A stretch of 64,000 nt of DNA from Castanea sativa (Eukaryota; Streptophyta; Magnoliopsida; Fagales; Fagaceae). A model generated the notes under the pieces. That model saw only the letters and a program-made list of their open reading frames with translations. It made no database searches and had not been told where the DNA came from. Shown piece by piece: positions 2,183 to 63,980 of this stretch. A program made the translations under genes and the position numbers. Within the stretch, counting starts at the first letter, position 1, and every line of letters starts with the position of its first letter. The stretch covers positions 29,371,273-29,435,272 of the forward strand of contig NC_134017.1 of the NCBI RefSeq assembly GCF_040712315.1. Reading direction: 5' to 3'.

Positions 2183-3935
2183 ATGGATAGAAGACAATCT
2201 CTTATTATACTTTCTTTGTTCGATGACATTAACTATGCATAATGGAAAGTACGCATGAGAGTTTTCTTGCAGTTTTTAGATGAAAAGGTGTGGCAAGCTG
2301 TGGAGATTGACTGGACTAAGCCAAAGGAAACTAGCTGATTAGGATGATGCCAATATCAAAGTGGTAAACTTTAATAGCAGAGCATTGAATGCATTATTTA
2401 GTGTGGTGACCAATGAGGAGTTCAAGAAGATATCCTCAATTGAAATTGCTAAGGAAGCATGGATCATCCTTCAGACAACCTATGAAGGGATTAAGGTTGT
2501 CAAGGATTCAAAGGCTCACTACTAGCTTTGAGGAGATAAAAATGGAGGAGGATGAGTTGTTTGATGAGTTCTATGCCAAGCTAAAGGACATAATCAACTC
2601 AGCCTTTAATCTTGGAGAAACCAGTCCTGAACCCAAGGTTGTAAGAAAAGTGTTAAGGTCTCTGCCTGAGAGATTTCATGCCAAGATTACTGCCATTGAA
2701 AAATCAAAGGATATTGATTCTATTCCTTTAACGGAGCTAGTTGGCAACTTGCAAACCTATGAATTGGGTTTGACTAGACTCGGGAAAGGAAGCAAAGGCA
2801 AGAGCATGGCACTGAAGGCCACGAGTAATGAGACTGATGAGTCTTCAGATGATGAAAATTTCAAGATGAAATCCCACATCACTAGGCAGTTCAAGAAGTT
2901 CATGAAGAATGCCAATGTGAAAGAATTTGATAAGGATTGTAAGCAATCCAATTCTTCTCAGTTCAAGACCCAAGACAGAGGAAAAAATGATGCTAAGGAT
3001 GGCGGTCAGTACACTATTCCCTTCGGACCAAAGTGCTTCGGATGCCAAGGTTTTGGACACATGAAGTAAGAATGTCCAACATATCTCAAGTCAGTTGGGA
3101 AAAGTAAGGCTCTTGCTGCTACCTTGAGTGAGACCGAACCTAATACTGAGTCAAAGGACAGTGATGACGAGGGAATTTTAAATGCCTTCATTGCTACAGT
3201 TGGTCCTACTGAGGGGATCATAAAAGAAGTGGATGAAGAAGAGAACTTGGTGGAATCCCAGTTTGAGAAGATGGATGATCAAGATAACACCCATATAGCC
3301 TATACAAAGCTATACAAGGTGTTTGAAAAGCATGAGAAATTGTATAGGCTGTCCACTAAGAAGCTTAGTGAAGTGGACATGGAACGAGAGGAGCTCTCTA
3401 ACAAGGTTGATGAAGCCAACTAAGTCATTGGAGCACTGTGTTTTAAGAACAATTTCTTGGGTGAAAGAACTAAGAAACTTGAAGCATAGTTGTTCCAAGT
3501 TCGAGCTCAATTGGAGAGGACTTCAAGTGCAAAGCTAAATGAAATGCTGAACCTCCAGAATTTAGCTTTTGACAGAATCGGCTTGGGGTATGAACTTTCT
3601 AACTCTTCTCATATTTTCTTTTCTAGTAGAACTGTTTTTGTCTCACCTGCTAATAATGTTAATTATGATAACATTAAATCTAAAATTGATATAGCTAGTG
3701 AGAACACAGACAAGGGCAAATCTATTCTAAGAGTACCCCCTGAGATAGAAAAGAAAGAGACTAGAAACCCTAGGGCTAAGAAAGACAATAAGGCTAAAAA
3801 TAAGAAGTCTCAACCTAAGAAGCCACATTTCTATCATAACTGTGAAGTTTCAGGGCATATTCGTCCAAATTGCTATAAGTGCTTAGCCACTCAACAAAGC
3901 AATAGTATGCTCTCGTCTGGAAACCAGAATTAGTT
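2183..3935 (+). pseudogene. gag: SIRE-lineage Ty1/copia gag, broken
   Basis: Gag packages the retroelement RNA. The likely start is the ATG at 2183, with an N-terminal DUF4219-like stretch (FDDINYA then WKVRMRVFLQ). A UBN2-type capsid region follows at about 2520-2800 (MEEDELFDEFYAKL, VRKVLRSLPERF). A zinc knuckle CFGCQGFGHMK is near 3030-3065, interrupted by a TAA, and a second degenerate one (YHNCEVSGHIRPNC) is near 3835-3870. Lysine/glutamate-rich coiled-coil-like stretches separate them, as in the long gag of SIRE/Maximus elements. Frames change near 2340, 2510 and 3430, and stops are scattered. Protease, integrase and RT are absent; homology fades around 4140, so this copy lost its pol. 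Confidence 0.85.
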
Positions 3936-4700: not shown

Positions 4701-6820
4701 ATGGAACGCTCTCGCTCTCTCTCACGCGACAAAGAAGACAAGCTGGTTCAGAGTAATAAGAAAGTCAGACTAGCACCATGCAAATGAAGATAACAGCTCA
4801 AGCCAGGATGGGGTCTCTGCCTACCCCTCTAAACTCTCCTTTAGGGATAAGCTAGTTGGGGAAATACTGGGAGCATACTCCCAAGCATTCGATTTCTCAG
4901 AGTATATGGATGCAGAATCGGACTTGGATGAGGAAGTGGAGGAAGTTAGGGAGGTGATTGCTTTGGTTGGCCTGTCCAAAGAGACCAAACAACGTATTAG
5001 AGCCCCCTGGTCCAAGGCGTTCATCGTGAAAGTCTTTGGTAAAATAGTAGGGTATAAATTCCTACATTCAAGACTGATGAATCTTTGGAAGCCTTCAGGG
5101 AGAGTAGACATGGTTGATCTAGGTAGAGACTTTTTCTTAAAAAGATTTTCAATCCTTGAAGACCTGGAGATGGTTCTTAGGAAAGGGCCTTGGTTCATAG
5201 GTGAACACTTTTTGTCCATCAGAAGATGAGAAGCAAATTTTAAACCTTCGGAAGCTCAAGTTTCTTTTGTGGCAGTTTGGGTCTGGCTTAATGAGCTACC
5301 GATTGAATATTACAATGCAACAGTACTCAATTAGATTGGTCAAGCTCTAGGTTAGGAGTTAAGGATAGACACCCACAATGCTATGGAAGCTAGGGGTAGA
5401 TATGCCCGAATATGTGTTCAGGTGGACATTTCCAAGCCTCTCACTACGATGGTGCAAATTGGGTAGTGCTACCAAACGGTTATCTATGAGGGGGTAAGCA
5501 AGCTTTGCTTCTCTTGCGGTCGCCTTAGACACCGGAAGGAAGCATGCCATTACATTGTTAGGCCACCTTCTCCGTCGCCTAAAGATTCCTTAGAACTAAA
5601 CGACACAGATAAGGTGGTCCAATTGCCAGTCTCTCCTTCAGCGCGATCCGAGGAACAAGGCAAGTTGGAGATAGAGTCAAACGAGGCAACTTTTGGCCCC
5701 TGGATGGTTGCTACGCGAAAAAATAAAGACATTAGAGCGCCAAAGAAAAGTGGACTAAAATCTTTATGAGTTTCGAACCTTGCAAACAGAAACAGCTCCA
5801 AAGAGCCGTTAGTATGAGACAAAGTTGATAAGTCTTCTAATGGGCCAAGCACCTCCTCAATTGAAGGAAAAAGAAAAGCCCATTCTGAGCCCGTATTCAG
5901 CTTGACCTCTCAAGCCTTTAATGTGGAAGCCAGCCTAAATGAATCCACACGCTCAGACCTAGGGCATGGTAACTATAGTCCACGCTTAGCTGAACCTGTA
6001 GGTAAATTCCACAAAGGTACATCCAAGACAAAACCTTTTGCCACGTCAGTAAAGGGCAAAAAATACTATGCACGTGCAAGGGACTCATCTCTTTCTCCAA
6101 GTCTAGCCGCAACATTAGAAGGAATCAGCTCTTTTAAACTTGATTGGTTAGTCAACATCTCTAAGCTCCAATTTGTTTCTAATGGTGAGTTCAAGTTTTG
6201 CAGCCCAACAAGAAATGAAGTGGGCGATCAGTGTCGATGGACTAATAGTGGAAATTCCAAGGGTAATCATCGACGAGATCAGAGCCCAACCTACCCACTC
6301 CACGGGATGGTTCAACTCCAAGCTACGCAAGGCTTGGAAATTAGTATTTCCCTTGACTCCGGTGAGTGCAAAACAGGGATTCCTTCACTTGACGGCACCA
6401 GAATGGGGAATGATGACAGACCCTTGTTGGAAGTTCATATCAGACACCTCGGGTTTGAAAGAATTGAGGAAACTAGTATAGAGCTCCATTCCTCAGCTCT
6501 CACCGACCTGTGCTATGCAAAGAGATTCCGAAGGAGAGCTTGACTGCGAGGAGAATGATGGAGGACCAAGCCATCACAACAAATTTTATGGGCAATCGAC
6601 ATGCAGTTAAGTTACTGCAAGTTTTTCAACCCATAATAGAGTTCAGCATCCACTCGTTTGCCATAGAGAAAATGTTGGGTGTTCTAGAACATTATGTGAT
6701 GCTGATGCCGGGCAGAGGCCAGATGAAAGAGATGGTAAGGAAGACCGGATGGAATCTAATGGAGGAAGCGAAGTACCTCCCTCCATTTGATGAGTGTCTA
6801 ACCCCAAACCACTGTTTAGT
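4701..6820 (+). pseudogene. LINE ORF1 (DUF4283 / CCHC nucleic-acid-binding protein)
   Basis: Plant L1 ORF1 proteins bind element RNA. The first ATG after the 5' duplication is at 4701 and is soon followed by stops and a frame change. The best-preserved part, about 4906-5330, matches DUF4283: WSKAFIVKVFGKIVGYKF, then LEDLEMVLRKGPWFIGEHFL and a following WLNELPIEYY. A CCHC knuckle (CFSCGRLRHRKEAC, spacing 2-4-4) lies near 5509-5550. The remainder to ORF2 (5550-6800) is a low-conservation proline/serine-rich linker, as usual in this family, and drifts between frames (5902-6543 and 6510-6820). Confidence 0.85.
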
Positions 6821-6821
6821 C

Positions 6822-9800
6822 ATGAATATAATAGCCTGGAATTGCAGGGGTGCTTTGAAGCCCTTTTTTCAGAACTGTGTGAGGGATTTGATTCATAACC
6901 ATGACCCTACCATTTTGATAATTATGGAAACTCACATTGGGGGAGATAGAGCTAGAGACATCACTAATAGCTTGCCTTTCAATGGGGCAATTCATACAGA
7001 TACGATTGGGCTTGCTGGCGGCCTCTGGATTTTATGGAACTTGGACAAAGTACATATCACCCAGTTGGCCATGTCAAAACATGAAATTCATGTCTTGGTG
7101 AAGGTAACCTCTTCAAATTTTGAATTTATTTGTACTGCCATATATGCTAGTCCTAGGTTCCATGAGAGATGTATTTTGTGGAATAATTTAAAAAATGCTA
7201 CTAACCCTCATAATAATCCTTGGATTATTGCCGGAGACTTTAATAAGGTTCTTGTAGAAGAAGATAAATTTGGGGGAAGAACAATTAATGCTAACAGATC
7301 GTTAATCTTCAAAGAATGTCTTGATTTTTGCAATATGGTGGATTTGGGGTTTAATGGACCTTGTTTTATTTGGACGAATTGGAGGGAAATTTTTGATCTT
7401 GTCCAAGAAAGAATCGATTGAATTTTTGCCAATCCCAGTTGGTGCACAGCCTACCCGAATGCCAAAGTGACCCACCTCACTCGTTGCTTCTCTGACCACT
7501 GCCTTGTGCTACTATAGTCAATTTCGAGCAATGGGGTTCACCTTCCTAAACCCTTCATCTTCCACAGTTTCTGGTTGTCTGACTTATCCTTTCAAGGTGT
7601 AGTCTTAGAAGCCTAGAGTCGAGCTTTGTCCTTGCAAGAAGCCATAGACAGATTTGCAAAGAGAGCCACAGATTGGAACAAGACTTATTTCGGAAATATT
7701 TTTGAATAGAAAAGGAGAATCCTGGTTCGTCTCAATGGCATTCAAAGGGCCATGGCCAACAATCCCTCTCACTCCCTAGTGGCTTTAGAAAGATTTACAC
7801 AAGGAGTTAGAGAACATTCTAAATTAGGAAGAAGAGGTTTGGGTGCAAAAATCCCGTATCACCTGCTTGGTGGAGGGCGACAGAAACACTGCCTTTCACC
7901 ATATGACCACTATTGTGAGGAGACGACACAACTAGATCTCTTGCATAAAGAATGATATGGGAGAGTGGATCCAAAACGAAGGTGGTGCAATGGAATATAT
8001 AAGAGGGGGATTTGCAAAACTCTTCACTTCTAGTTTGACATACTCCCTCCTCTCTCCGCCCCACCTGTCAAGATGGCAAGCTGCTCTTTTGGAGGACGAA
8101 AGCCTTAGCCTTAGCCTTAGCACCCCAGTTACTAATGAAGAAATTAAGCAAGATCTCTGGTCCTTTAAGGCGTTCAAGGCTTCAGGTCTAGATGGACTAC
8201 ATGCTGGTTTTTTTCAAAGGTTTTGGATGATAGTTGGGGATTCCATTAGAAAAGAGGTTGAATAGATTTTCAATGAAAACAAAGTTCTTGAATATCCCAA
8301 TAGAACAAATATTGTTATGATTCCCAAGATTACTGGACCAGAAACTATTGGAAATTATTTCCCATCAGTCTTTACAATACTGTTTACAAGATTGTATCCA
8401 AGATTATTGTGGCAAGGCTGAGACCCCATCTTGACAAACTTATCTCCCTTCTCCAATCAGCCTTCGTTCCAGGAAGGAGGAGTGTTGATAATGCTATTAT
8501 GGTCCAAGAGCTCATCCACACCATTAGCAATAAATAGGGGAAGGTGGGTTATATGGCTATTAAGGTGGACCTTGAGAAAGCGTACGACAAACTAGAATAG
8601 AGTTTCATTAGAGAAGTTCTTATCAATGCCAAGCTCCCCCACAATCTAGTTAGTCTTATTATGAGTTGTGTGTCTTCCGTGTCTACCTCTATTCTTTTCA
8701 ATGGAGGGAGTGTTGACCCCATCTTTCCTTCGTGAGGAATAAGACAAGGTGATCCGCTCTCACCTTATCTTTTTTTTCTTTGCATGGAAGTTCTTGGAAA
8801 TCTTATTGAAGAAAAATGTGGTGATCGTAGTTGGAATCCTATTAAAAGTTCAAAGAGCGGGGCTGCTTTCTCTCATCTGTTCTTTGCGGATGATTTAGTG
8901 CTTTTTGCAAAAGCAGATTACGTCAATTGCATGGTGATAAGGGATGTGCTTGATGCTTTTTGTGTTCAGTCTGGTCATTCCATTAGTGAAAGTAAGTCCT
9001 GAGTGTATTTCTCTCCAAATGTTGATATTGATTCTAGGGAGTCTCTATGTGGTCTTTTGGGTTTTAGATCCACTCCTAACCTTGGAAAATACCTGAGATT
9101 CCCCATTAAACATCGTGGAGCCAGCAACCAGGACCTTAATTTTGTCTTGGATAGGGTTAAGCACAAGCTAGTTGGATGGAAAGCAAACCTCTTGTCTTTG
9201 GCAAGTAGAGCTGTACTCATTCAAGCCTCCACTTCCATAATTCCCGCTTACATTATGTAGTGCATGGCTCTGCCTAAAAGCTTGCTCAATAACATTGATA
9301 GAGTCAACCGTAATTTCCTTTGGGGATCTTCTGATAATGTGAAAAAGACCCATTGGGTTGGGTGGCATAAAGTCACAAAGCCTAAAGCGGAGGAAGGGCT
9401 GGGTATACGATCTGCCAAAGGGAAAAACAAAGCATTACTAGCAAAACTCAATTAGAGGTTCCACTATAGATTAAGTGCTAGAAACAAAGACAAGCTGCCT
9501 TGTTCCAGAACTTGGAAGGCTTTAAATAAGGGGACAGAGGTTTTTAAGAAAGGCATCAAGTGGATCCCAGGAAGAAACAGTAAGCTCAGTTTATGGCATG
9601 ATAATTGGATAACCAATGGTCCTTTAAGATCCCTTATTCAAGGCCCTTTCACGGCTAAAGAGGAGGACTTGAAAGTAAAAGATATGCTTGGACCCGATGG
9701 ATGGGATTGGTCTAATTTGTCAATCCAGATTCCGGATCCAATCTTGTTGGAGATCCGATCCATTCCTTATTCCATGACTTTTAATAATGGGGATGACAGA

Positions 9801-10787
9801 TTAATATGAAAAGGTGATAACAAAGGAGACTTTGACCTCAAATCTGCTTATGCCATGGCCATTGATTGTAAGGATGGTGATGGTAAGTTCACTGGCACCT
9901 GGGTTTGGAAAATATAAACTTTGCCTAGGATAAGAACATTCATGTGGCAATGCATGCAGGATAGCATTGGAGTTGGAGTGTGTCTTGTTCAAAGATGCCT
10001 TATCGAAATTGATGTCTGTCCTTTGTGTGAAAGTGAGTCTAAAATGATTCTACATAGACTTAGAGACTACTCTTTCTTTAAGAATATCTGGCACTAGTTG
10101 GGCATAAACTCCAACAACAATTTTTACAAGGGTGACCTTCAGCATTGAATGGAGAAAAATTGTAAAGACCAATCCCATAAGCTGAGGCATCAACCCCCAT
10201 GGAGGATCATTTTTCCTTTTGCTATTTGGTGTATATGGAAGCAAAAAAATAACGTTGTCTTTCGGGATTGGTCTGCTCAACTAAATATCCACCAAGATAT
10301 CGTGTTCAAAGCTTCGGAATTTCAGCATTGCGTTCTTAATCTTAAATGCTTGGACAATAAGACTGTGGTGCAAATCAAATGGGAAAAGCCCCAACCTGGG
10401 TGGATTTGTCTTAACACTGACGGTTTAGCTCTTGGAAATCCAGGCGGAGCTGGAGGCGGTGGCATCCTTAGAGATGACCAAGGGAATTGGATTGCGGGTT
10501 TTTCCAGAAATATTGGTCTTTCCACCAGTTTTATTGCAGAACTTTTGGCCCTTAGAGATGGGCTTACCCTTTGTAACAATTTAAATTTTAATGTTGTTGA
10601 CATTCAAATTGATGCAAAAGAAATTGTAGTTCTACTCTCTAATCCTTCTTATTCTAACAATTTTGCCATGCCAATTGTTGATGACTGTAGGTGGTTGATT
10701 TCCCAGATTCCCCAAGTTCGGATCGGGCACTGCTATCGTGAAGCCAACTCTTGTGTGGACTTCCTTGCTAGGATAGGATATTCTTAG
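6822..10787 (+). pseudogene. LINE ORF2: endonuclease, reverse transcriptase, RNase H
   Basis: This ORF would encode the enzyme for target-primed reverse transcription. It starts at the ATG at 6822 (MNIIAWNCRG, the endonuclease opening). Endonuclease landmarks follow: METHIGG, IIAGDFNKV and FSDHCLVLL near 7490. RT landmarks are GLDGLHAGFFQRFW (about 8186), KVDLEKAYDK (8562), a GIRQGDPLSPY-type block (8738) and FADDLVLFAK (8884). A zf-RVT region is near 9830-10100 (CPLCESESK). RNase H closes the protein at 10390-10785 (NTDG, AELLALRDGL, IDAKE, REANSCVDFLA). At least ten in-frame stops occur, for example after RID (7420), LE (8600) and in the FPS-GIRQ block. Several replace an arginine or tryptophan that the family conserves. 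Confidence 0.92.
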
Positions 10788-22908: not shown

Positions 22909-23883
22909 TGTTGATGCCCTTTTTTTTTTTTAATGAATGACCCAATAGTAGAAGAAGCCCAATAATAAGAGACATGGAAAGAAAAAGAAATATGAATGGT
23001 AAAAGCAAGTTAGTAAACCCAATGGACCAACATGGCAGGAATAACAGCCAGCAGGCCCATGGAAAGAATAAGAGGTAAAGATGAAGCAAGTGGGCCGAGG
23101 AAGCCCAAGAAAAGAAGTAACAAGCCTAATGGGTTAACATGGCAGGAATAACAGCCAGCAGACCCATGAGGAGAATAAGAGGTAAAGATGAAGTGAGTGG
23201 GCCAAGGAAGCCCAAGAAAAGTGATAGCAAGCCTAATGGGCTAACATGGCAGGAATAATAGCCAGCATGTCCATGGGAAGAATAAGAGCAACCACACCAG
23301 TTGGTGGATAGTCTTCTAAAATACAAAAAGTGCTCAATTTTGCACATTTTAACCCCAAAAAACCCTATCAGTCTTTGTAAAAATGTCTAAATATACACAA
23401 TGTTCTTGTAAATGAACAGTAACCGTACATATATACATGATTACTGTTCATCATGTAAATAATTTTTTTATTCTTTTTTTTTTCTCTCCTCACTCTTTTT
23501 TTCTCATTTCTTTTCTCACCTCACTCTCACGGTTACTGTTCACAGTGTTAAAGAAATGAATATTTTATTTGAATAAATGTGTATAATAGACAAACTGATG
23601 TGGGTGTTTGGTAAAAATAGGTGTGTAAAATAGAAAAAGTAGGTTTTAGATGTGTAAATTGAAATTTTTTTTGCACACACTGATGTGGATGCTTTAAGAG
23701 GTAAAGATGAAGTAAGTGGGTGAGGGAAGCCCAAGGAGAGAGGTAGTAAGCCCAATGGGCCAACATGGCCAATGGGCCTATGGAAAGGAAGAGAAATGGT
23801 AGGAATAGGAGCCCAATGGGCTATACGGGTAGAGGCCATTGTCTAGACAATGCCCATTCCACAGAGGGATGAAAAAGGTAATG
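22909..23883 (+). repeat. 5' LTR, truncated, with internal tandem repeats
   Basis: It contains about three copies of a 107-bp unit (AATGGG..AACATGGC..GGAATAA.AGCCAGCA..CCCATGG) from 23018, the third split by a MITE. It ends abruptly at 'aggtaatgcaag', where the 3' copy continues for about 480 further bases (30303-30770). The missing part includes U5. Confidence 0.85.
23289..23694. mobile_element. MITE, about 406 bp, probably hAT-like
   Basis: It interrupts the third 107-bp LTR unit exactly: the LTR sequence 'aagaataagag' resumes as 'aagaggtaaag' after it. The direct repeat TAAGAG flanks it (23283-23288 and 23695-23700). The ends are inverted: CAACCACACCAGT on the left against the complement of 'actgatgtggatg' on the right. 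The interior has 'ccgtacatatatacatg' and 'acggttactgttca' phrases and no ORF. Confidence 0.75.
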
Positions 23884-25569: not shown

Positions 25570-28500
25570 ATGCTAAACAATCAAAGGCCTGAGATAAGAG
25601 TCTGGTCCTTAAATCGATTAGGGGTAGTAACGCCAGAAAGGAGACACTCAAGGCGAGCCTCTAAGTTCGCCACCTCCTTCTTCAGTTTCTTGATGTGGGT
25701 ATCAATGACATCAACAACAAGCTGGATATTTGGTATAAAGAATGCTTGGGCAATATCACATTAGTGGTCTATTAGAAACCCCATAACAAAATTAACACGG
25801 ATAAACTCCTGGATTGTGGCCTTCCACCGCATGATCTTTTTGCCGAAAATGGTGTCAATAAAGTTGTGCTCAATGTCATTCATCACACAACCCAGTAGCT
25901 TGAGGAATTGCTCCCTTGCAGAACGACTAAGAGGGAACCCTGCATGAAATCTCCACGGCTACTATAAACTACCTCCAAGTGCACAATGCAATCCTCAAGT
26001 ACCCGATACCCATGAAAGTCCACATAGGGAGGTCCAGCACCATGGAAGTCTACTAGATAAAGGTCAATTGTTTCCACCTACTCAAAACGGGCAAAGAAAG
26101 CAGCGACGTTACTTGCAGGGTTAGGAATGGTGGTATAACTACTCCCAACCTCAAACCTAGTGGTCGGAGCCCCTTCCGTAAGTGATGGACCTGAAAGAAA
26201 GGCTTAAACATAGTGTGAGCCCCTAACAAGGAAGCGAAGAAGAGAAATAGACACAAGAACACAATTCTAATTAAAGAGGGGACAAAGGCAATGAGGTTAC
26301 TAGGACCAGCAGGAAGAAGGGCTATGGGCACCGCATGAACTACTACAACCTTAGCCTTTAGGCTTTTCAAGCATGTCCATGACTGTGTGACAAAGACAAC
26401 ATGCAAAGTATATAGAGTAATGTATAAAGAAATGACAGGAAGAGAAGGAAAAGAAGACATACTAGGAATTGAGGATACATACCCATGACCTTGACCCTCT
26501 ACTCATCATCAGAAGCCTTATCAGAGTCAGAAACCTATGTCTTCACAACTAGCTTGTCATTGGAATCCTCAAGAACCTCCTCAGACCCCTTATCGGAGGA
26601 AAAGTTTGCGTCAGGCCCTCGGGTGGCAGAGCTGGGAATGGAGGACGGAGTGATAACCAATGAAGACCGATCATTGACAGCCTATGAAAGAGTAGCAAAG
26701 AGTTTGCTGGTAGAAATAACAGGCAGAGGAGTAGCAGGAGAAGTGCTCTTGGCTTGGGATGCCCTTTTAGGAATGGCTCCCTTTTGGAGAGTGGGGGTGT
26801 TAGCAAAAATAAGGATGGACTCTCCAATGACAACTCCTTTAGCAGGGGCGGCCTCCTCAACAAGATTAGACTTAGATGGAGGAATCAAGGCCTCAGTAGG
26901 AACTCCCTAGGCAGCAGCAGTGGTAAAAGCCATGGTGTTGGCAACAACATCCGCACCATTGAAAAAGCCCTCCATGGGGGTATCAATAGCAACAAGAGCC
27001 TTCTCACTTGTAGGATGGTAAATAGAAATGGGCTCAAGGTCGACCTAACGGAAAGACATCAAAGCAAGGAAAAAGGTGAATAGACTAGATAGAAATAAGG
27101 ATGCATGCACAAATAAGGAAAAAAACAAATAGGAAAAAAGAATGTACCTTAGCCTCGGGCTCATCGAGTAATAAGGGGCAAGTAGAAGAAGTGTCCTCTT
27201 TGTACTTAGACTGCTAGATAACATACTTTCCTCACGGCAGTGGCAGACGGGGCTAGAGGAGATGTCTTCCTCTTACTGCCACGAATCCTGCTAGAAGGAG
27301 CATCCACAAATGGCCTTGGTGTAGGAGGCCTAGACATGGTTGCACTAGAACGCCTGGTGGATTGGGTTTTTGGTAGAAGGAGGAGGAGAGCTTTCAAGAA
27401 CCATGTTGCTACTAGAGGGAGACCTTCCTTGTACGGGACAATATCAGAATAAGTCTCAGAGGAGTCACCACCCTTCTTGGCAGACTTAGGCTTAGCGGAT
27501 TGCGATACCAAGCCCTTCTTTGTTGGCGCAAGAAGGTTCATAACTTTCACCTTCTTCTCCCAACCATGAGAGAACTTACTAGCATACCAATACCATCCTT
27601 GCTCTTTCTCCTACCCCTAAATATAGCTAGCCTACTCTGCTTCTTGGCATAGGCCATCATAAACTTGGTGAGAAGTAACAACAACGGGTTCGTGGAGATA
27701 GTGGCATGTAGGCCATCAGGGGGAATGAGAAAGAACCCACAGCCACCCAACAACTCTTGACTGAAAGAACTCATCACTACCTGCCAATAACCATGCATCT
27801 ACACGATACAAAGACCCACTCTTTGGGAACTCGAAATAGTGACTACTGTAAAAAGCTTACTCCAAAACTCAAAAGCACTAGGGCACAGGAAAGGGCGAAC
27901 CAAAATAGTGGTATCCAAGATCAAGGTAAATTCATTAGGTATGTCCTGATTAAGCCCAAACGGTCTCCTCACTCTATGGGCAGAATAATGTAAATATCGG
28001 ATACTTAGCTAAGTAAGGCAACTACCCAGCATTAGTGGCTGCCAAGTAAGTAATCCCCCTCTCATCAAAGGCTGTCGGAGGGGTAGTGGTCCTAGCAGTG
28101 GCCATGAAAGGGCCCATCACCGAATCAGCATAAATGAACCCACTACCCAGGTTCCTATAAGCCCTCCATGAAAAACCCACCTCTTTGTCAAAAAATTCTA
28201 TGGCAGGATGCCCAAATGACTTCAACCTAACCCAATGGTATGCCAAAGGAAGCTCAGTAACAAAAAGACCACGAAAATCAGTAATTACCTTGGGGTAGGA
28301 TTGGTACTTCTCCTTAGCATGGCGGACTGGCTTGCACTTGGCTAGATGCTTAGCACAACGTTCCCAAAGAAGGTTTTGTAGTATGGTGCTGTGAGCAGAA
28401 GAAGTAACTATATGGCAAGAACCTACCTGCCTCTCATCACTCTGCAAGATGTCCAACTGAACATATAGATGATTGAAGAACATAAGGGCTAATGGCAAAC

Positions 28501-29363
28501 TCACTCTAGCAGAAATCTTTATGGCTAACCATAAATACACAAGCTTTACAGCATAATGTGGGTGCAAACCAAAAATGAACTTACAAAGCCAAAACGTGAC
28601 AAAGGCAGCACGGCAAACGGCGGTGGAAGCCTTTAAGAAAGCCCCAACCCAATGAAATAACTTCACATTCACACTGACCCCCTTCTTCAACTCGGCCTTC
28701 ACGGCCTCCTACTTGGCAGAAAGCCCAATGTTGTTGGGGTCTGTGTCACTAAGGACGGGTAATAGAAATTGATTGGCCACATCCTCTAAGTTCATGATGA
28801 TCTTACCATAGGAAAGAAAGAAAGTGTGGGTGACGCTACACCACTGGCGAATCAAGTGGCGGTGAACAAGTCGCGGTAGTTGGACAAGCACCAAGTGGAA
28901 ACTGTAGCCTTTAATAGGCCGGTTCGTTGAAGCACCTTCATAAAGCCCACATCAGATAGTTTTGTGTCTACCCACCCTTTCTAACCCAATGATGTGCTCG
29001 ACCTGAACTCAAAGAGAATAGGTATTGGTAATGTGGTTCCTTGACGGATGTCGAGGTCAGGGGTGGAGGAAGCCAAGGGAGCCCAAGAAACTTTAGAATC
29101 ACACTACTTGAGGGAAAGAATCACATGGCCTGCGGAGGAGGTGATTAGTCACCGGGCACCACAAAGAATTGAATGTGGGTATCATACCATGGGTCGATGA
29201 GGGGAGGACACTTACTGCTTGGGTCACGACCCCCTTCCTCCTCTTCAGAACAGCGTGATTCAAAATGGGGAGCCTCTCCACCTGTGGCCTTAATGGGCGG
29301 ATTATCAGTGGTAACCTCTTTTCCTTTACGGCGGGAAGAACACTCACCCTTTGCTGGCAACAT
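25570..29363 (-). pseudogene. antisense ORF with plant mobile domain (PMD)
   Basis: It lies between integrase and 3' LTR, opposite to pol, where Tat-lineage elements often carry an antisense ORF. A probable start is the ATG at 29361-29363 (MLPAKGECSSRRKGKEV, then an acidic run SEEEEGG). A PMD-like region spans about 28894-28100: WCSVTHTFFLSYGKIIMNLE, LHPHYAVKLVYLWLAIKIS, LPLALMFFNHLYVQLD and NLLWERC. A lysine/serine-rich segment (27550-27200) follows. The end (25760-25590) is a coiled-coil-like stretch (IDTHIKKLKKEVANLEARLE). Stops and frame changes break it at about 28710, 27800 and 26900. Some may be introns; I could not place all splice sites. The function of PMD in retroelements is not established. 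Confidence 0.75.
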
Positions 29364-29736: not shown

Positions 29737-30770
29737 TGTTGATGCCCATTTTTTTTTTTTATGAAAGGCCCAATAGTAAAAGAAGCCCAACAATAAGGGA
29801 AATGGAAAGAAAAAGAAACATGAATGGTAAAAGCAAGTTAGAAAACCCAATGGGTCAACATGGCGGGAATAACAGCCAGCAGACCCATGGGAAGAATAAG
29901 AAGTAAAGATGAAATAAGTGGCCTGAAGAAGATGAAGAAAAGAGGTAGCAAGCCCAATGGGCCAACATGGTGGGAATAATAGCCAGCTGGCCCATGAGAA
30001 GAATAGAAGGTAAAGATGAAATGAGTTGGCTGAGGAAGCCCAAGAAAAGGCGTAGCAAGTCCAATGGGCCAACATGACAAGAATAATAGCCAGCAGGCCC
30101 ATGGAAAGAATAAGAGGTAAAGATGAAGTAAGTGGGCTGGGGAAGCCTAAGGAAAGAAGTAGTCAGCCCAATGGGCCAACATGGCCAGCAAGCCCATGGA
30201 AAGGAAGAGAAATGATAGGAATAGGAACTCAATGGTCTATACGAGTAGAGGCCTTTGTTTGGACAATGCCAATTCCATAGAGGGACGAAAAAGGTCATGC
30301 AAGCCCAAAATCCCACACATGCCTCATGCTGCAGAAGACAAACATTACCCAACATGCATGGCAGAAAAATACGGCGCAAGAGTGGCAGAAATGGCGTGGG
30401 AATAAAAGAAGACATATCTAGATGGTAGTAGAACTCGCATAAGGCCTAGGCCACCTCTTACGTGTACCTAACCAATATATGAGAGGTGGGCCCTCGGTCA
30501 AGGGATTCAAGGGGTGTGGTTTGGCAGTGGGGAGAAAAGAGGTCTATTCTGGGGTTCCTGCCAAGACTCCTTTTGGAAAATGCTTTGCTGGTATGGAATT
30601 TCTCCCAAAAGAGATAAATACAGGCTGTGACCATTTGATGCATGCCATAGGGATAGGTATTGAGAACCCTCAACCTTTACCCACTGAGGGGAGGCAAGAG
30701 ATTTGTAACTTAAATTGTTCTTATTTCTTGGTCTTTTTAATAGAGACATTTAGCAAGATTGAATCAATAT
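29737..30770 (+). repeat. 3' LTR with 107-bp tandem repeats
   Basis: It opens TGTTGATGCCC like the 5' copy. It carries about three and a half copies of the 107-bp unit from 29849 (AATGGGYCAACATGRC... to ...AAGAAAAGRNGTAGCAAGYCC). The unique 3' part is 30280-30770. The end is placed near 'gattgaatca' by style only. Confidence 0.8.
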
Positions 30771-33340: not shown

Positions 33341-33352
33341 TGGTATTAGAGC
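33341..33352 (+). other. primer-binding site, initiator-tRNA-Met type
   Basis: TGGTATTAGAGC abuts the gag ATG at 33353 and differs by one base from the canonical TGGTATCAGAGC. The upstream 33170-33340 is therefore probably the LTR end, although its start could not be placed. Confidence 0.8.
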
Positions 33353-34351
33353 ATGGCCACCATCGAGGACCGAATTGAGAAATTAGAGAGTGAAATGCAG
33401 GAGTTAAAAGAGAGTGTGCAAAAGTTGACCACAGAATCCCAATTTCTTGGTTCATCCATGTGTGAAATTAAACAGATGCTGTCCAAATCCCATGACAAAT
33501 TAGATTCTCTCTCAATCCCGAAATCAGATCAGTCAATTAGATTCAAAACTACAACACATGATCAACCTCAACCCACCACGCTGGATTTTCCAAAGTACTC
33601 GGGTGATGATCCAATGGTTTGGCTCGACCGTGTAAGTCAATATTTTGACTACCAAGGGACACCTGAAGATCGTAAAGTCACGTTAGCTGCCTTTCATTTG
33701 GAAGGAGAAGCAAACCGATGGTGGCAGTGGATGAAGAAGGTGTTTCAAGAGGAGAAGACAAAGATCACATGGAAGAAATTCAAAAAAGAGTTATTGGTTC
33801 GATTTGGGCCAATGGAGGATGAGGATTTTGACGAAGCTTTGTCTAAGATATGTCAGAAGGGAACACTCCGGGAGTACCAGCGAGAGTTTGAAAGATTAGC
33901 TAATCAAGTTGATGGGTGGCCTCAAAAGGCATTGGTGGGAGCTTTCATGGGTGGATTAAAAGAAGAGATTGCCTCGGAAATCAGAATGTTCAAACCAAAA
34001 TTTCTCTCGGAAGCTATTGAGTTGGCTAGAATCAAAGATGAGAGTCTAAATAGACGGCGTCAAGGCAAGAAGGGTTTCCAGCAATCCAATTCCATGACAA
34101 AGTCCCTGCGGAAGTCAAGTCCACATGGCACTCTTGGTACAACGAATCAAGCGACGGACATTGGAAGCACAAGGAGGATTTCTTGGGAGGAAATGCAAAG
34201 TGGGAGAGAAAAAGGGCTATGCTTTAGCTGCAATGAGAAGTTTACACCGAGGCATCGTTGTGCCACACCACAAGCCTTTTTGGCAGAAGCTTACTCACAG
34301 CAAGACCTATTGGAAGTCACTGACAGCAAATGGGAAGAAGATAATCTCTAA
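33353..34351 (+). CDS. gag: chromovirus-type gypsy gag (332 residues, intact ORF)
   Basis: Gag forms the retroelement particle. The start is the ATG directly after the primer-binding site. A coiled-coil N-terminus (residues 1-60: RIEKLESEMQELKESVQKL) precedes the Retrotrans_gag capsid domain (about 75-200: YSGDDPMVWLDRVSQYFDYQ, EGEANRWWQWM, REYQREFERLANQVDGWP). A modified zinc knuckle CFSCNEKFTPRHRC (about 295-308, spacing 2-7-1) is typical of Reina/Galadriel-like chromoviruses. This frame is open throughout, unlike the rest of the element, and ends shortly before the protease. It is the only long undamaged retroelement gene in the window. Confidence 0.88.
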   Translation: MATIEDRIEKLESEMQELKESVQKLTTESQFLGSSMCEIKQMLSKSHDKLDSLSIPKSDQSIRFKTTTHDQPQPTTLDFPKYSGDDPMVWLDRVSQYFDYQGTPEDRKVTLAAFHLEGEANRWWQWMKKVFQEEKTKITWKKFKKELLVRFGPMEDEDFDEALSKICQKGTLREYQREFERLANQVDGWPQKALVGAFMGGLKEEIASEIRMFKPKFLSEAIELARIKDESLNRRRQGKKGFQQSNSMTKSLRKSSPHGTLGTTNQATDIGSTRRISWEEMQSGREKGLCFSCNEKFTPRHRCATPQAFLAEAYSQQDLLEVTDSKWEEDNL

Positions 34352-42673: not shown

Positions 42674-44113
42674 ATGGTTTGGACAAGATTAAGGGCTACC
42701 AGCCCAGGCCACCAGGAGAGTAGGGATGCTTCTAGTAATCCCCACCGTGATCGTCAGTTAGCACCTGTCATGCAACCGCCTGCCATTCAACATATACAGT
42801 CCACGGCTGCCACCATGGCGGAACTAACCTGTCAGAACCAAGAGTTGACTAGGGAGATTAGTCTAAGGAGGCAACACCATGAAAGACATGTGGAAGGGCA
42901 AGCCTAGAGTCAAGAAGGTAGAGGAGAAAATCCTGAGCCTGAGAACCAGTTAAGGGATACTGCTTCAAGAAGGGTGCCGCACTTGGAGAGGGAGATGGAC
43001 CAAATGAGGAAAGCTATGGATGAAATGTGGGAGAACATGAGAAGGGCGAACCTTGTAGATGATTTAGTTCACCGAATGGACTTTCCTTTCACGGCTTTTA
43101 TCAATAGTCATCCCTTACCCCTAAAGTTCAAGATGCCTTTCTTGGATTCATATGATGGAACGCGTGACTTGTGTGATCATATCGCCACCTTCAATACTAC
43201 CATGCACCTTCAGGGGGTTTCAAACAAGATTATGTGCAGGGCTTTCCCTACCACCCTCAAGGGGCCAGTGCGAGTGTGGTTCAGTAAGATACCCTTAAAC
43301 ATTTTGGGCTCATTTGAAGAATTGAGTAAGTTGTTCGTTAACAATTTTATCAGAGGACAACACCACAAGTGTTCCCCTTTCAGTCTGTTAACTATAGAAC
43401 AAGGGAAAAACGAGAGTTTGCGGTCCTTCATTACTCGGTTCAACAGAGAAGCCTTGACGATAGCCTTCCACAATGGAGTCAACTTTGATTTATTCATTCA
43501 TAAGCTTTAGGAGCAAGAGCCACAAACCATGGCTGAACTCATCCATTCAGCCCAAAATTTCATGAATGCGGAGGATGCGATCATAGATAAGAAGAGGAAG
43601 AGAGCAGAGCGTATGGAAGCAGATCTCCCGCGTCATCTTGAGTAGGGTCCTCGTCCAAAGAAGGCTCGAGTAGGAGAGAAAAAAGACAGAGATAGCAAGA
43701 AGGCGAGTTCTTCAGCAAGGAATCAACAATACGCTCCCTTGAATACGCCACTTGAGTAAGTGCTTATGCAAATCAAGGATGACCCGTCCTTGAAGTGGCC
43801 AGATAAAATGAAAAGAGATCCTAACAAGCTCAATAGGAACAAGTATTACCGCTTCCACAGAGATCATGGGCATGACATGGACGAGTGTTTTGATTTGAAG
43901 CAGCTAATAGAGAATCTCATCAGGCAAGGAAAGTTGATGAATTTTCTTAGACGAGACCACAAGGACGAGAAGTTGAAGGCAAAGGTTGAGGAGTCGTCAC
44001 GGCCCTTACTTGGAGAAATAAGAGTTATTATAGGAGGAACCTCAACAGGCCAGTCATCTAAGTCAAGGAAGACATACTTAAAGGTGGTGCAAAACGTCCA
44101 ACTATTTGGATGA
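42674..44113 (+). pseudogene. gag: Tat gypsy gag, broken
   Basis: The first ATG in frame is at 42674, about 50 bases after the primer site. A coiled-coil-like N-terminus (ELTCQNQELTREISLRRQ; EREMDQMRKAMDEMWENMR) is followed by the capsid domain at about 43075-43510 (DSYDGTRDLCDHIATF, FPTTLKGPVRVWFSKI, SLRSFITRFNREAL). A zinc-knuckle-like relic, YYRFHRDHGHDMDECFDLKQ (about 43847-43906), has the H-D-x-x-E-C pattern common in this lineage. In-frame TAG codons interrupt it at 42905, 43508, 43644 and 43757. Confidence 0.9.
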
Positions 44114-44159: not shown

Positions 44160-47100
44160 ACGAGGAAGCTAAAAGAGTTCACCACCCACATGACAACGTG
44201 ATCGTCATTACTCTGCTCATTGCTGATTATACGACTAAAAGGGTGTTAGTAGACAATGGCAGCTCAGTGGACATCTTGTATTACCCCACCTTCCAACAAA
44301 TGAGGCTGGGACAAGATTAGCTCCGTCTAGTGAATTCGCCCTTGGTAGAATTTGGAGGGATGAAAGTGCAACCTGTGGGTACCATTACATTACTTGTGGT
44401 AGTCGGAGTGTACCCGTAAGAAATAACCAAAAAGGTAAACTTCCTTATTATTGATTGCTCATCATCATACAATGCCATCATTGGAAGACCGACTTTAAAT
44501 AGTTGGAAGGCAGTAACGTCTATCTACCATTTGTCTGTCAAGTTCCCGACTGAGTATGGAGTAGGTCAAGTACAAGGAGATGAATTAGCCGCTAGAGAAT
44601 GCTATTTAGCCATGTTGGCTATGGACAAGCACGTACAGATGAACATAGACGAGAGAAGGATTACAGCGGAGCCCATTGAATTACTAGAAGATATTCCTTT
44701 GGACAAGAACAAGCCTGAGAAGTTTACTAGAATTGGGGCGAGTATGGAAAAGAAGACAAAGCAGACCTTGGTCTAGTTTTTGAAGAAAAGCCTTGATGTG
44801 TTTGCATGGAGTCATGAGGACGTGCCAAGTATCGACCCAAGTGTCATTACCCATCATCTAAACGTGAATTCTTTCTCCAAGCCTGTATGTCAAAAGAAAA
44901 GAGTTTTTGTTCCTGAACGAGACAATGCCATCAAAGAAGAAGTCCAGAAGTTGATCACGGCAAATTTTATCCGGGAAATCTATTATCCAGACTGGTTGGC
45001 TAATGTTGTTATGGTTAAGAAGGCTAATGCTAATGGCAAGTTGAGGATGTGTGTGGACTTCAGTGATTTAAACAAGGCTTGCCCCAAGGATAGTTACCCG
45101 TTGCCACGCATTGACCAGCTGGTGGATTCGACAGTGGGTCATAAACTGCTAAGTTTCATGGACGCCTTTTCAGGCTACAATCAAATAAGGATGGACGAGG
45201 TGGATCAAGAGAAGACTTCCTTCATTACTAGCCAAGGGTTATTTTGCTACAAGGTAATGGCTTTTGGTTTAAAGAACATGGGGGCGACTTACCAAAGACT
45301 GGTTAACTAGATATTTCATCCACAAATTAGACAGAATGTGGAGGTTTACGTAGATGACATGCCGGTAAAGAGTTTGGACGAGGAGAAGCATCTGGACAAC
45401 CTTCAAGAAAATTTTGATACACTTAGGTGGTATAACATGAAGTTGAATCCAAGCAAGTGTACTTTTGGAGTTTCGTCAGGGAAGTTCCTGGGGTTCATGG
45501 TTTCACATTGAGGAATGAAGGTAAATCCCAACAAAATCCTGGCAATTCTAAATATGGAGCCACCGAAGAATATCAAAGAAGTCCAATCTCTCATCGAATG
45601 AGTTGCCGCCCTTAACAGGTTCGTCTCAAAAGCTACTGATAAGTGTTTACCATTCTTTAAGGTTCTCAAAAAGGCATTTAAGTGGACGGACGAGTGTCAG
45701 AAGGCCTTCCAAGACCTCAAGGCTTACCTCACCACAGCACCTTTGCTGAGCCAGTCCATACCTGGTGAAGAATTATATTTGCACTTGGCGATGTCCCCAC
45801 ATGCAGTGAGCTCGACATTGATTAGAGAAGAAAGGTGGATTCAGAAGCCAGTTTATTATACGAGCCGGACACTAAGAAGAGTGGAAGGACGATATCCAAT
45901 GATGGAGAAGCTAGCCTTTGCTTTGGTCACGGCTTTTAGGAAGTCAAGGCATTATTTTTTAGCTCATGTCAGGTACTAACCAGGGAGTGCGATAAAAGTA
46001 CAAGCATTGGCAGATTTCATTGCGGAGTTCACTCCCGGTTAGGACGAGCTAGACAAAGAGGTAGGGGCTCCAAGGTGGGTCATCAATGTTGATGGCTCAT
46101 CCACGTTATACGCAAGAGGGATTTGAGTCATACTAAAGTCCCCGGAGGGAGATAAGTTGGAATAAGTAGCCTGTCTACAATACCAAACCACTAACAACGA
46201 AGCTAAATATGAAACTCTCCTCAAAGGACTAGAGTTGACTAAGTCTTTAGGGACGGAGTCAGTAATAGTTAAAGGAGACTCTCAATTGGTTATTAATCAA
46301 GTGAATGGAATGTGTGAAGCTAAGGAGGATTGAATGAAGAAATATCTCAACAAAGTGAAGCGGCTAGTCCAGAAGTTTAAAGAAGCCAGTTTTGTTCAAC
46401 TCCCGAGGGAGAAAAACATGGAAGCAGATGCTTTGGTGAAAGCAGCTTCGACAGAAGGAATTATGGACGAGTATGACAAAATTCAATACATGCCGAGCAT
46501 AGACCTTCCAGAGATATAGCAGATAGGAGGGGGAAAAATTGGATGAGTCCAATAATATTCTATCTCAAGGATGGAAGGCTTCTAGAAGACAAGGATGAGG
46601 CTAGGAAGTTAAGGGTCAGGGCTGCCTAGTACGTCCTCATAGATGAAGTACTATATGTATTAGGAGAAGTCCATGAAGGAGCATGTGGGAATCACTCGGG
46701 AGAAAGATCACTAGTCCATATAGTCGTTCGTACAGGCTACTACTGGCCAACTATTCAAGCAGATGCAAAGGCTTATGTCAAGTTGTGTGACCCATGTCAA
46801 TGCTTTAGCAACATTCCTAAACAGCCCTCGGAGTACCTGACCCCAATGATGGCCTATGGCCCTTTGCGAAATGGGGACTGTATATCTTAGGTCTTTCCCC
46901 ACTAGGAACCAGACATATGAAATTTTTGGTAGTAGGGATTGACTACTTTACGAAGTGGGTGGAGGCCGAACCTTTAGTAAAAATTACTCAGCAAAATGTT
47001 AAAAACTTTGTTTGGAAGAACATTGTATGTAGGTTCGAGGTACTTAGGGTACTAGTATCTGATAATGGAAGATATTTTGACAATGCATATTTCAGAGACT

Positions 47101-52091: not shown

Positions 52092-53039
52092 GTAATCTCA
52101 AACTCGAAGGATTGGAGCCAGAAAAGGTCCCAATCAAATAAAAATGACTTAAGGGTGTTTTGTGAAAACTTCCCTTTTGATTCAGTAATTTCTAGTGAAT
52201 CTTAGGTTTTGGGATTTCAGCGTGTCTTGAAAATGTACCATATAAGACTTTTTATAGTTGAAAAAAATGGGGTTTGGAATGGCTCCCAGGTGATGTAGGA
52301 TTTGTTCCAAACCTCAGCCATTATTGCAAAAAACTTGCCTTTCTTATGCTTCTGAAATCTTAGATACGTACGCAAGAGCGTGCCTATTTACGCATGCTTT
52401 GGCTCATGAATGCAAGCCGAGGGTTATTTTGGTAATTTTATTTCCAAAAATAATTTTTTTGCTCATTTAAAATGTTATATTTTTCATTTTAACACTTCTC
52501 AACTCAATTTAATATCTGATTGGGCTCTAAACTGGCCTTGGGCCTTAGAGGCATAAGGGATACAAAATGTGGTGTCTACATTTTGTTTTGATGTATGGCT
52601 CAGGCCCAAGCCACTTACATGACACACATCACGCATACGTGGGTGGGGTGCAACTTTGAAGAGTTGCGTGGGATTCATATGTTCAAAGTCCCACCTTTAT
52701 TGATCGGGAAATGAGCAACGACAAGTTCACTATCCCAGAACCTGTTTTGCCACTTGCAAGCAAATGGCGAGTGACTCACTATCCTAGAGTCACTAAAAGA
52801 AATATAAAACCAATAAGGGTACTCTTACGAGCTAACCCAACAAACAAAAAAGGATATAGTCCCTGTGGTGTCAATCTGGGGCTTTTGCCTTAAACTTCTC
52901 CGGGTGACTTATTCCTCTTGCCTTGTTCACTTCTTTTTCTACCTTTTCTGGTGAGGCTCTTGCCTCGGGTTGGCCTTGGCCTTTTTCTCTATCACTATCT
53001 CTACATTTTTCTACCGTGCTTGCATGTTCAAATTCCTGG

Positions 53040-53850
53040 AGGATATGTGCACGAGTAGGATTTACTAGGGATGGTGAAAATCTCACTGAGGAGTGGATGT
53101 ACATGGGGAGGAATCTTCTGCCTGTTATGACTTGCTTGGAGATGAGAAACTTGCTGAGGAGTAGTATGGATGGATTTGCTGAGGAGTAGTATGGATGGAC
53201 TTGTTGAGAAGTAGTGTAGATATGCAATCCACTAGGGAAGAATCTTCTGCTTCCTTCATGGTTCACGGAGGACTTTGAGGAAGAATCTTTTACTTCCTTG
53301 CTAGGGATTTTTTGGTGTATGGGACTCATTGGGGACGAATCTTCTGCCTCCTTACTGGGAATACTTTGGGGAAGAATCTTTTACTTCCTCACTAGGAGTT
53401 GCTTTAATGTTCTTGGGTCCATCGGGGAAGAATCTTCTGCCTCTTCCATGGGTTTGATGCTAGACATGCTTAAATTTTTGGGGAAGAGTCTTTTGCTTCC
53501 TTTATAGGGATGATATTTGATACATTTGGGGAAGAATCTTCAACTTCCTTAATGGGGATTCGCTTTAGATGCTTGAAATATTGAGGAAGAGTCTTCTACT
53601 TTCTTACTAAGGGTGATGTTTGATAGATTTGATCCATGTGAGGAAGAATCTTTCGCTTCCCTCACTAGGGATATTTTGCTTGAGATGCTTGAAATATAGA
53701 GGAAGAGTCTTCTACTTCCTTACTGAGGATGATGTTTGGTAGGTTTGATTTGTTGGAGGATGATTCTTGATGTGCTTGAATCACTGGGGATGATTCTTGA
53801 TGTGCTTGATCCACTGGGGGATTTTTTGATGTGCTTGATTCATTGGGAAT
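53040..53850. repeat. degenerate 50-70-bp tandem repeat array
   Basis: 'gaagaatctt.t.cttcct' followed by 'actggggat' recurs about a dozen times with variable spacers, drifting toward 'gatgattcttgatgtgcttga' at the right end. It suggests an old minisatellite within the element. Confidence 0.8.
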
Positions 53851-53963
53851 TTTTTCGTTGTTGATAATTTGTGTTTAATTGTGGGAATCTTGAGATGTCC
53901 CTCCTTTGAAAGAAAGAAAAAAAAAATTTTGTTTTTTTTTTTTTTTTTTTTTACTGTTCATGA

Positions 53964-59864: not shown

Positions 59865-60725
59865 ATTTTCAGAGTCCATCCATGTTAATGGGGCAAAGCA
59901 TCTCTTCCCCATCCAAATCTTATGACTCTTGTAGCACCTCCAGACATGATCTTCTTAATGATAAAAGGCCTAGACCACCTATGCTTCATTTTTCCCCTTG
60001 GATCAAAAGTCTCATCTCTAAGCACCTTTAGGAACAAGTCCCCTTCTTTAAGGTTTCTTGGTTTTACTTTCTTATTGAATGCTCTAGCAATCCTTTTTTT
60101 GGTACCCTTGTGCATGGTATTGTGCCCTAGCCCTCTTCTTATCTATCAAAGCCAATCTTTCATATCTCGCCTTGGCCCAATCCTCTTCTAGGACCTTAGC
60201 TTCCACCAACACCCTCAAAGATTGTATCTCCACCTCAATAGGAAGTACCACCTCACTACCGTAGACCAAGGATTAAGGTGTTGCCCCAGTCGATGCACGG
60301 ATAGAAGTCCTATAACCCTATAAGGCAAATGGAAGCTTCTCAGCCCAATCTTTGTATGTCTCTACCATCTTGGCTAGGATATTTTTTACATTCTTATTGG
60401 TTGCTTCTATGGTCCCATTAACTTGTGGTCGATATGGTGAAGAATTGTGATGTTCAATGCTATATTCTTCCATTACTCTTCAGACTTCGCCTTCAAAGTG
60501 GAAACCATTATCAGAAATGATCTCTTGGGGCACCCCAAACTGACATATGATGTTGTTCTCTAAAAACCGAGCCACATGCTTAGCCTTCAACAAGGAATAG
60601 GAGGCCGCTTCCACCCACTTAATGAAGTAGTCAATTACCACTAAAATGTACTTATGCCTATTTGAAGCCTTAGAAGCTATTCTTCCAATCACATCTATGC
60701 CTCAAATTATATATGGCCCCCTAAA
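59865..60725 (-). pseudogene. pol: Ogre-like gypsy integrase (partial, minus strand)
   Basis: It starts abruptly near 60725 with GIDVIGRIASKAS then HKYILVVIDYFIKWVEAASY, the first catalytic aspartate of the integrase core. It continues FGVPQEIISDNGFHFEGEV (second aspartate). Downstream frames (60269-60084, 60115-59885) read MVYGSEVVLPIEVEIQSLRV, RYERLALIDKKRA and GDLFLKVLRDETFDPRGKM. Stops and frame shifts break it. Everything upstream (gag, protease, RT, RNase H) is missing, so the element is 5'-truncated or continues elsewhere. Confidence 0.88.
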
Positions 60726-62965: not shown

Positions 62966-63924
62966 TCATGGCAACATATTGATATATTTTTGAAGGGGTG
63001 ACTCGAGAGACTCTGTTCCACTAGGACCTAAAGGATGTTCCACAGGGGGTGTCGTGGGAGACTTGATAGGATCTAGGCCATTTGGAACTGTCCTTTTGAT
63101 CTCATAATTTAAAGAACCAAAATCATTAGAAACAATAGGATGTTCTACAGGGGCATTCCAGGAGACTTGATAGGATCTGGGCCCTTTGGAACTCTCCTTT
63201 TGATCTCATAATTTAAAGAACTGAAATCATTAGAAACAATAGGATGTTCTACAGGGGGAGTTCCAGGAGACTTGATAGGATCTGGGCCCTTTGGAACTCT
63301 CCTTTTGATCTCATAATTTAAAGAACTGAAATCATTAGAAACAATAGGATGTTCTACAAGGGGAGTTCCAGGAGAGTTGATAGGATCTAGGTCCTTTGGA
63401 ACTGTCCTTTTGATCTCATAATTTAAAGAATCGAAATCATTAGAAACAATAGGATGTTTTACAAGGGGTGTTCCAAGAGACTTGATAGGATCTGGACCCT
63501 TTGAAACTCTCATTTTGATCTCATAATTTAAAGAACCAAAATCGTTAGAAACAATAGGATGTTCTATCGGGGGTGTTCTAGGAGACTATATAGGATCTGG
63601 GCCGCCAGGAACTTTCCTCTTAATCTCATAATTTGAAAAACCAAAATCATTAGAAATAGTAGGATGTCCTACAAGGGGTGATCTCGGAGATTGTATAGGA
63701 TCTGGGACACTAGGAACTGTCCTTTTGATCTCATAATTTAAAGAACCAAAACCATTAGAAACAATAGGGTGTTCTATAAGGGGTGTTCTAGGAGACTTGA
63801 TAGGATTTGGGCCTTCAGGAACTGTTCTCTTGATCTCATAACTTAGAGAACCAAAATCATTATAAGCATAAGATAGAGAGAGATGTGTGAATATTACGAG
63901 AAAAAAAACCTTCAGGGACTCCAT
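62966..63924 (-). pseudogene. secreted multi-domain CLE-like peptide precursor, eight tandem 35-aa units
   Basis: CLE peptides are 12-13-residue apoplastic signals cut from secreted precursors and sensed by receptor kinases. The ATG at 63922-63924 opens a signal peptide (MESLKVFFLVIFTHLSLSYA, predicted cut after SYA). Eight units of 35 residues follow, each carrying KR-x-VP-x-GPDPI after an NDFGSLNYEI-like spacer and before SPGTPLVEHPIVS. This is the CLE consensus up to the isoleucine; the usual final H-N/H is replaced by K/Q/N-S-P. Units 2, 4, 5 and 8 deviate (VP for GP, VSK, KDL, NGL). An in-frame TAG (63586-63588) cuts unit 3 right after GGPDPI, and a one-base loss near 63152 shifts frame in unit 7. 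The restored frame would stop at 62966. Either the gene is decaying, or the short form with signal peptide and three motifs is used. Confidence 0.82.
62990..63862 (-). repeat. 105-bp coding tandem repeat, about 8 copies
   Basis: The DNA unit ('gatctcataatttaaagaac' and neighbours on the plus strand) repeats every 105 bases without gaps except the frame-shifting one near 63152. Central units are the most alike, as expected from unequal crossing-over. Confidence 0.92.
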
Positions 63925-63971: not shown

Positions 63972-63980
63972 CTTATATAA
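63972..63980 (-). promoter_or_regulatory. TATA box of the CLE-like gene
   Basis: On the minus strand TTATATAAG lies about 48 bases before the ATG at 63924. That allows a transcription start roughly 30 bases downstream and a short 5' leader. Confidence 0.6.

Follow-up and report, generated by a model that had tools for sequence, protein, structure and literature searches.

A tandem array of CLE-like units in Castanea sativa, probably the remains of a multi-CLE-like precursor gene

The 64,000-nucleotide stretch of Castanea sativa DNA analysed here (the window) carries on its minus strand a leader-like start followed by eight tandem units, most of which resemble the core of a CLE peptide, and a reading frame that is broken in two places. 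Judged from the sequence, the evidence best supports a CLE-related precursor with several units as the product of such an array. We propose that the locus is a degenerating multi-CLE-like gene whose full reading frame has been lost, a reading that we consider likely rather than assured.

Organization of the array

Tandem Repeats Finder describes units with a period of 105, in 7.9 copies with 86% matches and a score of 1163, at 63032–63862; none of the other 14 rows obtained for the window with a minimum score of 80 is higher, the runner-up standing at 470. The array is far beyond chance. Its strand, which is absent from the earlier note, is minus, as it is for all the features of the locus given below. 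The outer ends of the span claimed in that note (62966–63924) fit, the ATG lying at 63924–63922 and the last stop, a TGA, ending at 62966.

The start codon opens a signal-peptide-like leader (MESLKVFFLVIFTHLSLSYA, 63865–63924) which, judged by eye, is hydrophobic and ends in S-Y-A, and a near-identical leader is common to three of the eight relatives described below (P0002, P0003 and P0005). A TATA-box-like TATATAAG is situated 55 bases 5' of the start codon (63972–63979), but is a weak hint of a promoter because the window has four copies of this 8-mer on either strand. Unit 1 (63736–63840) has the core RTVPEGPNPI followed by KSP, and unit 2 (63631–63735) has RTVPSVPDPI followed by QSP, while the core of unit 3 (63526–63630), RKVPGGPDPI, is followed by an in-frame TAG. 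Beyond this lie unit 4 (63421–63525; MRVSKGPDPI, then KSL), unit 5 (63316–63420; RTVPKDLDPI, then NSP) and unit 6 (63211–63315; RRVPKGPDPI, then KSP). Unit 7 (63107–63210) has the same core and KSP as unit 6 and is 104 bases long where the others have 105, and unit 8 (63032–63106), with RTVPNGLDPI and KSP, comprises the first 25 codons of a unit only. In the frame of unit 8 there follows a C-terminal tail of 21 residues (LGPSGTESLESPLQKYINMLP) with its TGA stop (62966–63031), and 19 of the 21 residues match the tail of P0004. The locus thus has the several regularly spaced units by which multi-CLE precursors are recognized, eight of them at intervals of 35 codons except for a single interval of 104 bases. 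The earlier description of eight 35-residue repeats holds for the number of units and for the period of 105, but not for the 104-base unit, nor for a single frame.

Two interruptions of the reading frame

The spacing between the anchors of the eight units is 105 bases in six of seven cases and 104 in the last, and the frame therefore shifts inside unit 7, behind its core and KSP, where a short run of C contains or adjoins the site of the missing base. The TAG (63586–63588) is the codon directly after the GPDPI of unit 3. A mechanical list of open reading frames accordingly gives separate entries at 63586–63924 (112 aa), which runs from the leader to the GPDPI of unit 3, and at 63145–63513 (122 aa). 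The earlier note had implied one open frame behind one signal peptide; the stop and the missing base contradict this, and the intact open reading frame expected of a CLE precursor is lacking at the locus. Although the repeat can be followed by eye across both breaks, with these two lesions the product would be at most 112 aa and reach into unit 3, provided that no splicing occurs round them. Loss of function would follow from the stop and the frame shift, and the locus is probably a pseudogene.

Resemblance of the units to CLE peptides

The motif KR-x-VP-x-GPDPI, formerly ascribed to every repeat, is present in exact form in three of the eight units (3, 6 and 7), and GPDPI in four (3, 4, 6 and 7). 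A K-S-P ending, likewise claimed throughout, is found in units 1, 6, 7 and 8, whereas unit 2 has QSP, unit 3 stop-SP, unit 4 KSL and unit 5 NSP. Histidine 11 is absent from all eight units, its place being taken by K, Q, N or a stop, and all eight have S at position 12, where N or H is expected.

We scored the units with two matrices, one built from 27 Arabidopsis CLE peptides (matrix 1) and the other from 12 published multi-CLE motifs, two of them from rice CLE76 (matrix 2; PMC2254619). The controls were 69844 other 10-mers from all six frames of window bases 1–62900, and 20 shuffles in which the window was permuted in two-base steps. With matrix 1 the ten-residue cores of units 1 to 8 score 24.3, 22.7, 31.7, 14.4, 11.9, 30.0, 30.0 and 20.4, against 12.8 for the best other 10-mer and 16.7 for the highest shuffle; with matrix 2 they score 23.0, 23.8, 29.8, 19.3, 11.7, 25.4, 25.4 and 18.4, against 9.6 and 20.6 respectively. 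The core R-x-V-P-x-G-P-D/N-P-I is therefore above the shuffles in six of eight units with matrix 1 (1, 2, 3, 6, 7 and 8) and in five with matrix 2 (1, 2, 3, 6 and 7); units 4 and 5 fall below the shuffle maximum with both matrices, and unit 8 does so with matrix 2 (18.4 versus 20.6). Most units thus carry a recognizable R-x-V-P-x-G-P-D/N-P core, and the cores of five units (matrix 1) or three (matrix 2) fall inside the score range of the training CLE peptides. Over the full 12 positions, all eight units score under the lowest training peptide with either matrix (4.2–24.0 versus 27.3, and 9.7–27.8 versus 32.7).

A Pfam scan of the two open reading frames of the locus gave nothing at the cut-off, and a weak match of the second to DUF6538 (E 0.11, 12.6 bits versus 27). 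The strings GPDPIQS, GPDPIKS, GPDPIQSP and VPSGPDPIQ were not found in literature text, a search that sequences printed in figures escape. The earlier assignment to a multi-CLE or CLE-derived precursor is partly borne out by the core scores, the unit length and the layout, notwithstanding the twice interrupted frame and the missing H11. Because both H11-N/H12 and an open frame were looked for and are lacking, we do not claim that the locus belongs to the CLE family proper.

Relatives of the array

Protein searches returned eight relatives (P0001–P0008), which include all six found by a second search; they come from ENA contigs, the longest for each being 640 to 2547 bases. All eight have leader, units or tail in common with the locus, and the family is therefore real and not confined to it. 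The leader and the tail do not occur together in any of the eight, the shared tail standing at the end of P0004. A unit with RTVPKGPNPIK, or close to it, is the first in P0002, P0003 and P0005 and the last in P0004, while the other units have RKVPSGPDPIQ or close to it. The sharing of leader and tail among the relatives speaks for a family that was coding and does not mark it as dead.

Damage looks common among the relatives, as far as can be judged from short contigs and gene calls that may ignore introns. By eye, four of the eight (P0004, P0005, P0006 and P0008) have unit-like stretches in a shifted frame, and two (P0006 and P0007) end exactly at the DPI of a unit, through a stop or the end of the contig, a possible parallel to the TAG in unit 3 of the window. 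P0001 and P0008 share an alternative C-terminal end, ISNDF-C/S-TFLDPLN-T/A-NRLT, where another unit would be expected, possibly a read-through intron, a rearrangement or another exon.

Pattern matches in viral contigs (5 and 29) and in bacterial and archaeal genome contigs (18) yielded no confirmed relative. A Pfam scan of the eight relatives returned no family. Five of them (P0002, P0004, P0005, P0006 and P0007) carry a precomputed assignment to PF27922.1, which that scan did not return, and no mention of this accession was found in the literature searched.

Differences between units

Ratios of replacement to silent differences are 0.50 between units 1–3 and units 4–7, 0.54 within units 1–3 and 0.48 for unit 8 against all others. 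Units 4–7 differ among themselves by 5.0 silent and 29.0 replacement changes, a ratio of 1.84, which set against 0.48–0.54 in the older comparisons fits older constraint and recent release. The test is a weak one, because units 1–6 give 0.58 in the true frame and 0.68 and 0.74 in the wrong ones, the unit pairs overlap rather than being independent, and high ratios are in any case usual for young comparisons.

The rest of the window

Ten open stretches of the window, nine of the 14 with at least 150 codons and one of 70 codons, were scanned against Pfam, and eight match at E 0.001. Seven of these matches concern domains typical of retroelements, of which the integrase match is below the cut-off, and the eighth, also below the cut-off, is to a Plant mobile domain. 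Together with the gene itself, they fit a plant origin. The retroelement-type fragments lie at 2410–3066, 6477–7418, 10149–10784, 33350–34348, 42908–43507, 44777–45307 and 60480–60692, and their domains comprise copia-type and other gag, Ty3 capsid, endonuclease, RNase-H-like RVT_3, reverse transcriptase and the sub-threshold integrase. Two arrays of 107-base units, alike by eye and about 6.5 kb apart, are situated at 23021–23288 and 29829–30185, with the sub-threshold Plant mobile domain match (28025–28708) nearby. Several short arrays with periods of 25 to 116 occupy 53149–53855, and an open stretch that adjoins them on the minus strand (52874–53380) contains IPSKE twice. Rfam at gathering thresholds and ARAGORN found nothing in the whole window.

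Interpretation and alternatives

The ancestor of the locus most likely worked like a multi-CLE precursor. In an intact ancestor the leader would have directed the precursor into the secretory path, and proteases would have cleaved it at the basic pair that precedes every unit (EI-K|R-x-V-P). Several similar peptides would thereby have been freed, each starting with the core R-x-V-P-x-G-P-D/N-P-I, and these might have been read by receptor kinases of the CLV1/BAM type.

Alternatively, the living plant may have an intact and working eight-unit precursor, with both the stop and the absence of one base arising as errors of sequencing or assembly. There are just two lesions in about 960 bases, relatives keep the leader and the tail, and the missing base in or beside a run of C would suit this explanation. 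However, the two lesions are independent, and both the ends at DPI in two of the eight relatives and the frame changes seen by eye in four of them count against it; moreover, a 259-residue read-through query found no match at E 0.001 among 54 candidates (proteins of about 142–453 residues). We therefore regard an intact gene as unlikely. We are more doubtful still about a shortened but working gene, in which a CLE core forms the extreme C terminus of the 112-aa product and the units past the stop are left over and untranslated. The 112-aa frame does include the leader, the replacement ratio is high among units 4–7, and P0006 and P0007 end at the same residue of the unit. P0007 begins with residues that by eye match the last part of unit 1 in P0005, which would place the P0007 end in its own unit 3, and its last unit is closest to unit 3 of the window (13/14). 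On the other side, P0006 and P0007 may end where they do simply because their contigs end there, and the order of units in P0007 is not firm because its first whole unit is also closest to unit 3 of the window (29/35). Moreover, unit 2 of the window is without the core glycine, and P0001 has Q at the position of the stop codon in both its units. An extension of this idea, in which stops at the same place in the unit, shared or recurrent among relatives, made a short precursor whose final ten residues are the CLE core alone, with I10 as the free end, and were kept for exposing a C-terminal peptide without trimming, we think the least probable of the possibilities raised here.

It is also very unlikely, in our estimate, that the units form a repeat family unrelated to CLE, such as a proline-rich secreted protein whose R-x-V-P-x-G-P-D-P-I resembles CLE by convergence. 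The missing H11 and N/H12 in all eight units, the full-length scores below those of every training peptide (minima 27.3 and 32.7) and the lack of a Pfam match among the relatives speak for such a family, but the core scores of five units (matrix 1) or three (matrix 2) reach the range of the training CLEs, and rice CLE76, which is classed as CLE in print, departs in like manner. The degenerating multi-CLE-like gene thus remains our preferred reading. The damaged copy in the window would be useful mainly for annotation and for tracing the growth and decay of multi-CLE arrays; if intact relatives were found, the family would join rice CLE76 as an example of multi-unit CLE-like precursors that lack the H-N end, and one could then test whether peptides of this type are read by receptors.

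Comparison with known CLE precursors

The single-unit Arabidopsis peptides CLE25 and CLE26 (RKVPNGPDPIHN and RKVPRGPDPIHN), which have the H-N end, agree in nine of ten core residues with RKVPSGPDPI, the usual inner unit of the relatives. Among Lotus CLE domains, as tabulated with multi-CLE genes excluded, H11 is present in 91%, the exceptions being three serines and one glutamine (PMC5570945). In the crystal structure of TDR with TDIF, Asn at position 12 bonds with two arginines, and the same paper cites a loss of activity, in part, for N12A (PMC4979064); units in which S takes this place may therefore bind poorly or to a different receptor. Pseudogenes of the CLE family are frequent enough to appear in family surveys, examples in print being MtCLE19, MtCLE34 and LjCLE5 (PMC5570945).

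Multi-unit precursors are also described in print; the Populus survey reports none in its species (PMC4776436). The rice CLE500-series does include such genes, as the earlier note had it, OsCLE502, 504 and 506 being named as multi-domain (PMC12677920). That note also took eight units and the loss of the H-N end to be unusual; neither is new, because LjCLE32, LjCLE33 and RsCLEm1/2 already carry eight or nine units and the units of rice CLE76 (PITS) already lack this end. In the table of Oelkers et al. 2008, multi-CLE units are spaced 25 to 37 apart and once 58 (PMC2254619). The locus is like LjCLE32 and LjCLE33 in unit number, with eight and nine putative peptides respectively, and its 35-residue units are at the upper end of the 24 to 35 residues given for repeats in multi-CLE genes of Lotus and Medicago; the likeness to these two genes is one of layout, and they are listed as prepropeptides (274 aa and 347 aa) and not as pseudogenes (PMC5570945). 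Medicago MtCLE14 has seven CLE units, and GmCLE37a/b have six (PMC4526924). By layout the locus also resembles radish RsCLEm1/2, with eight tandem CLE domains and a signal peptide drawn according to the legend of Figure 7, and Brassica napus BnCLEm3, with five tandem domains, but these genes, unlike the locus, are described as probably coding (PMC11172632).

The closest precedent in the units themselves is rice CLE76, which has several similar units per precursor, RKVPTGPDPITS or REVPSGPDPITS, with no H11 and with S at position 12 (PMC2254619). It differs in having four units, spaced 25 to 29 residues apart in a protein of 195 aa, and in having T at position 11 followed by D-P-P-P, whereas the units of the window have K, Q or N at this position and continue with P-G/R-T-P (PMC2254619).
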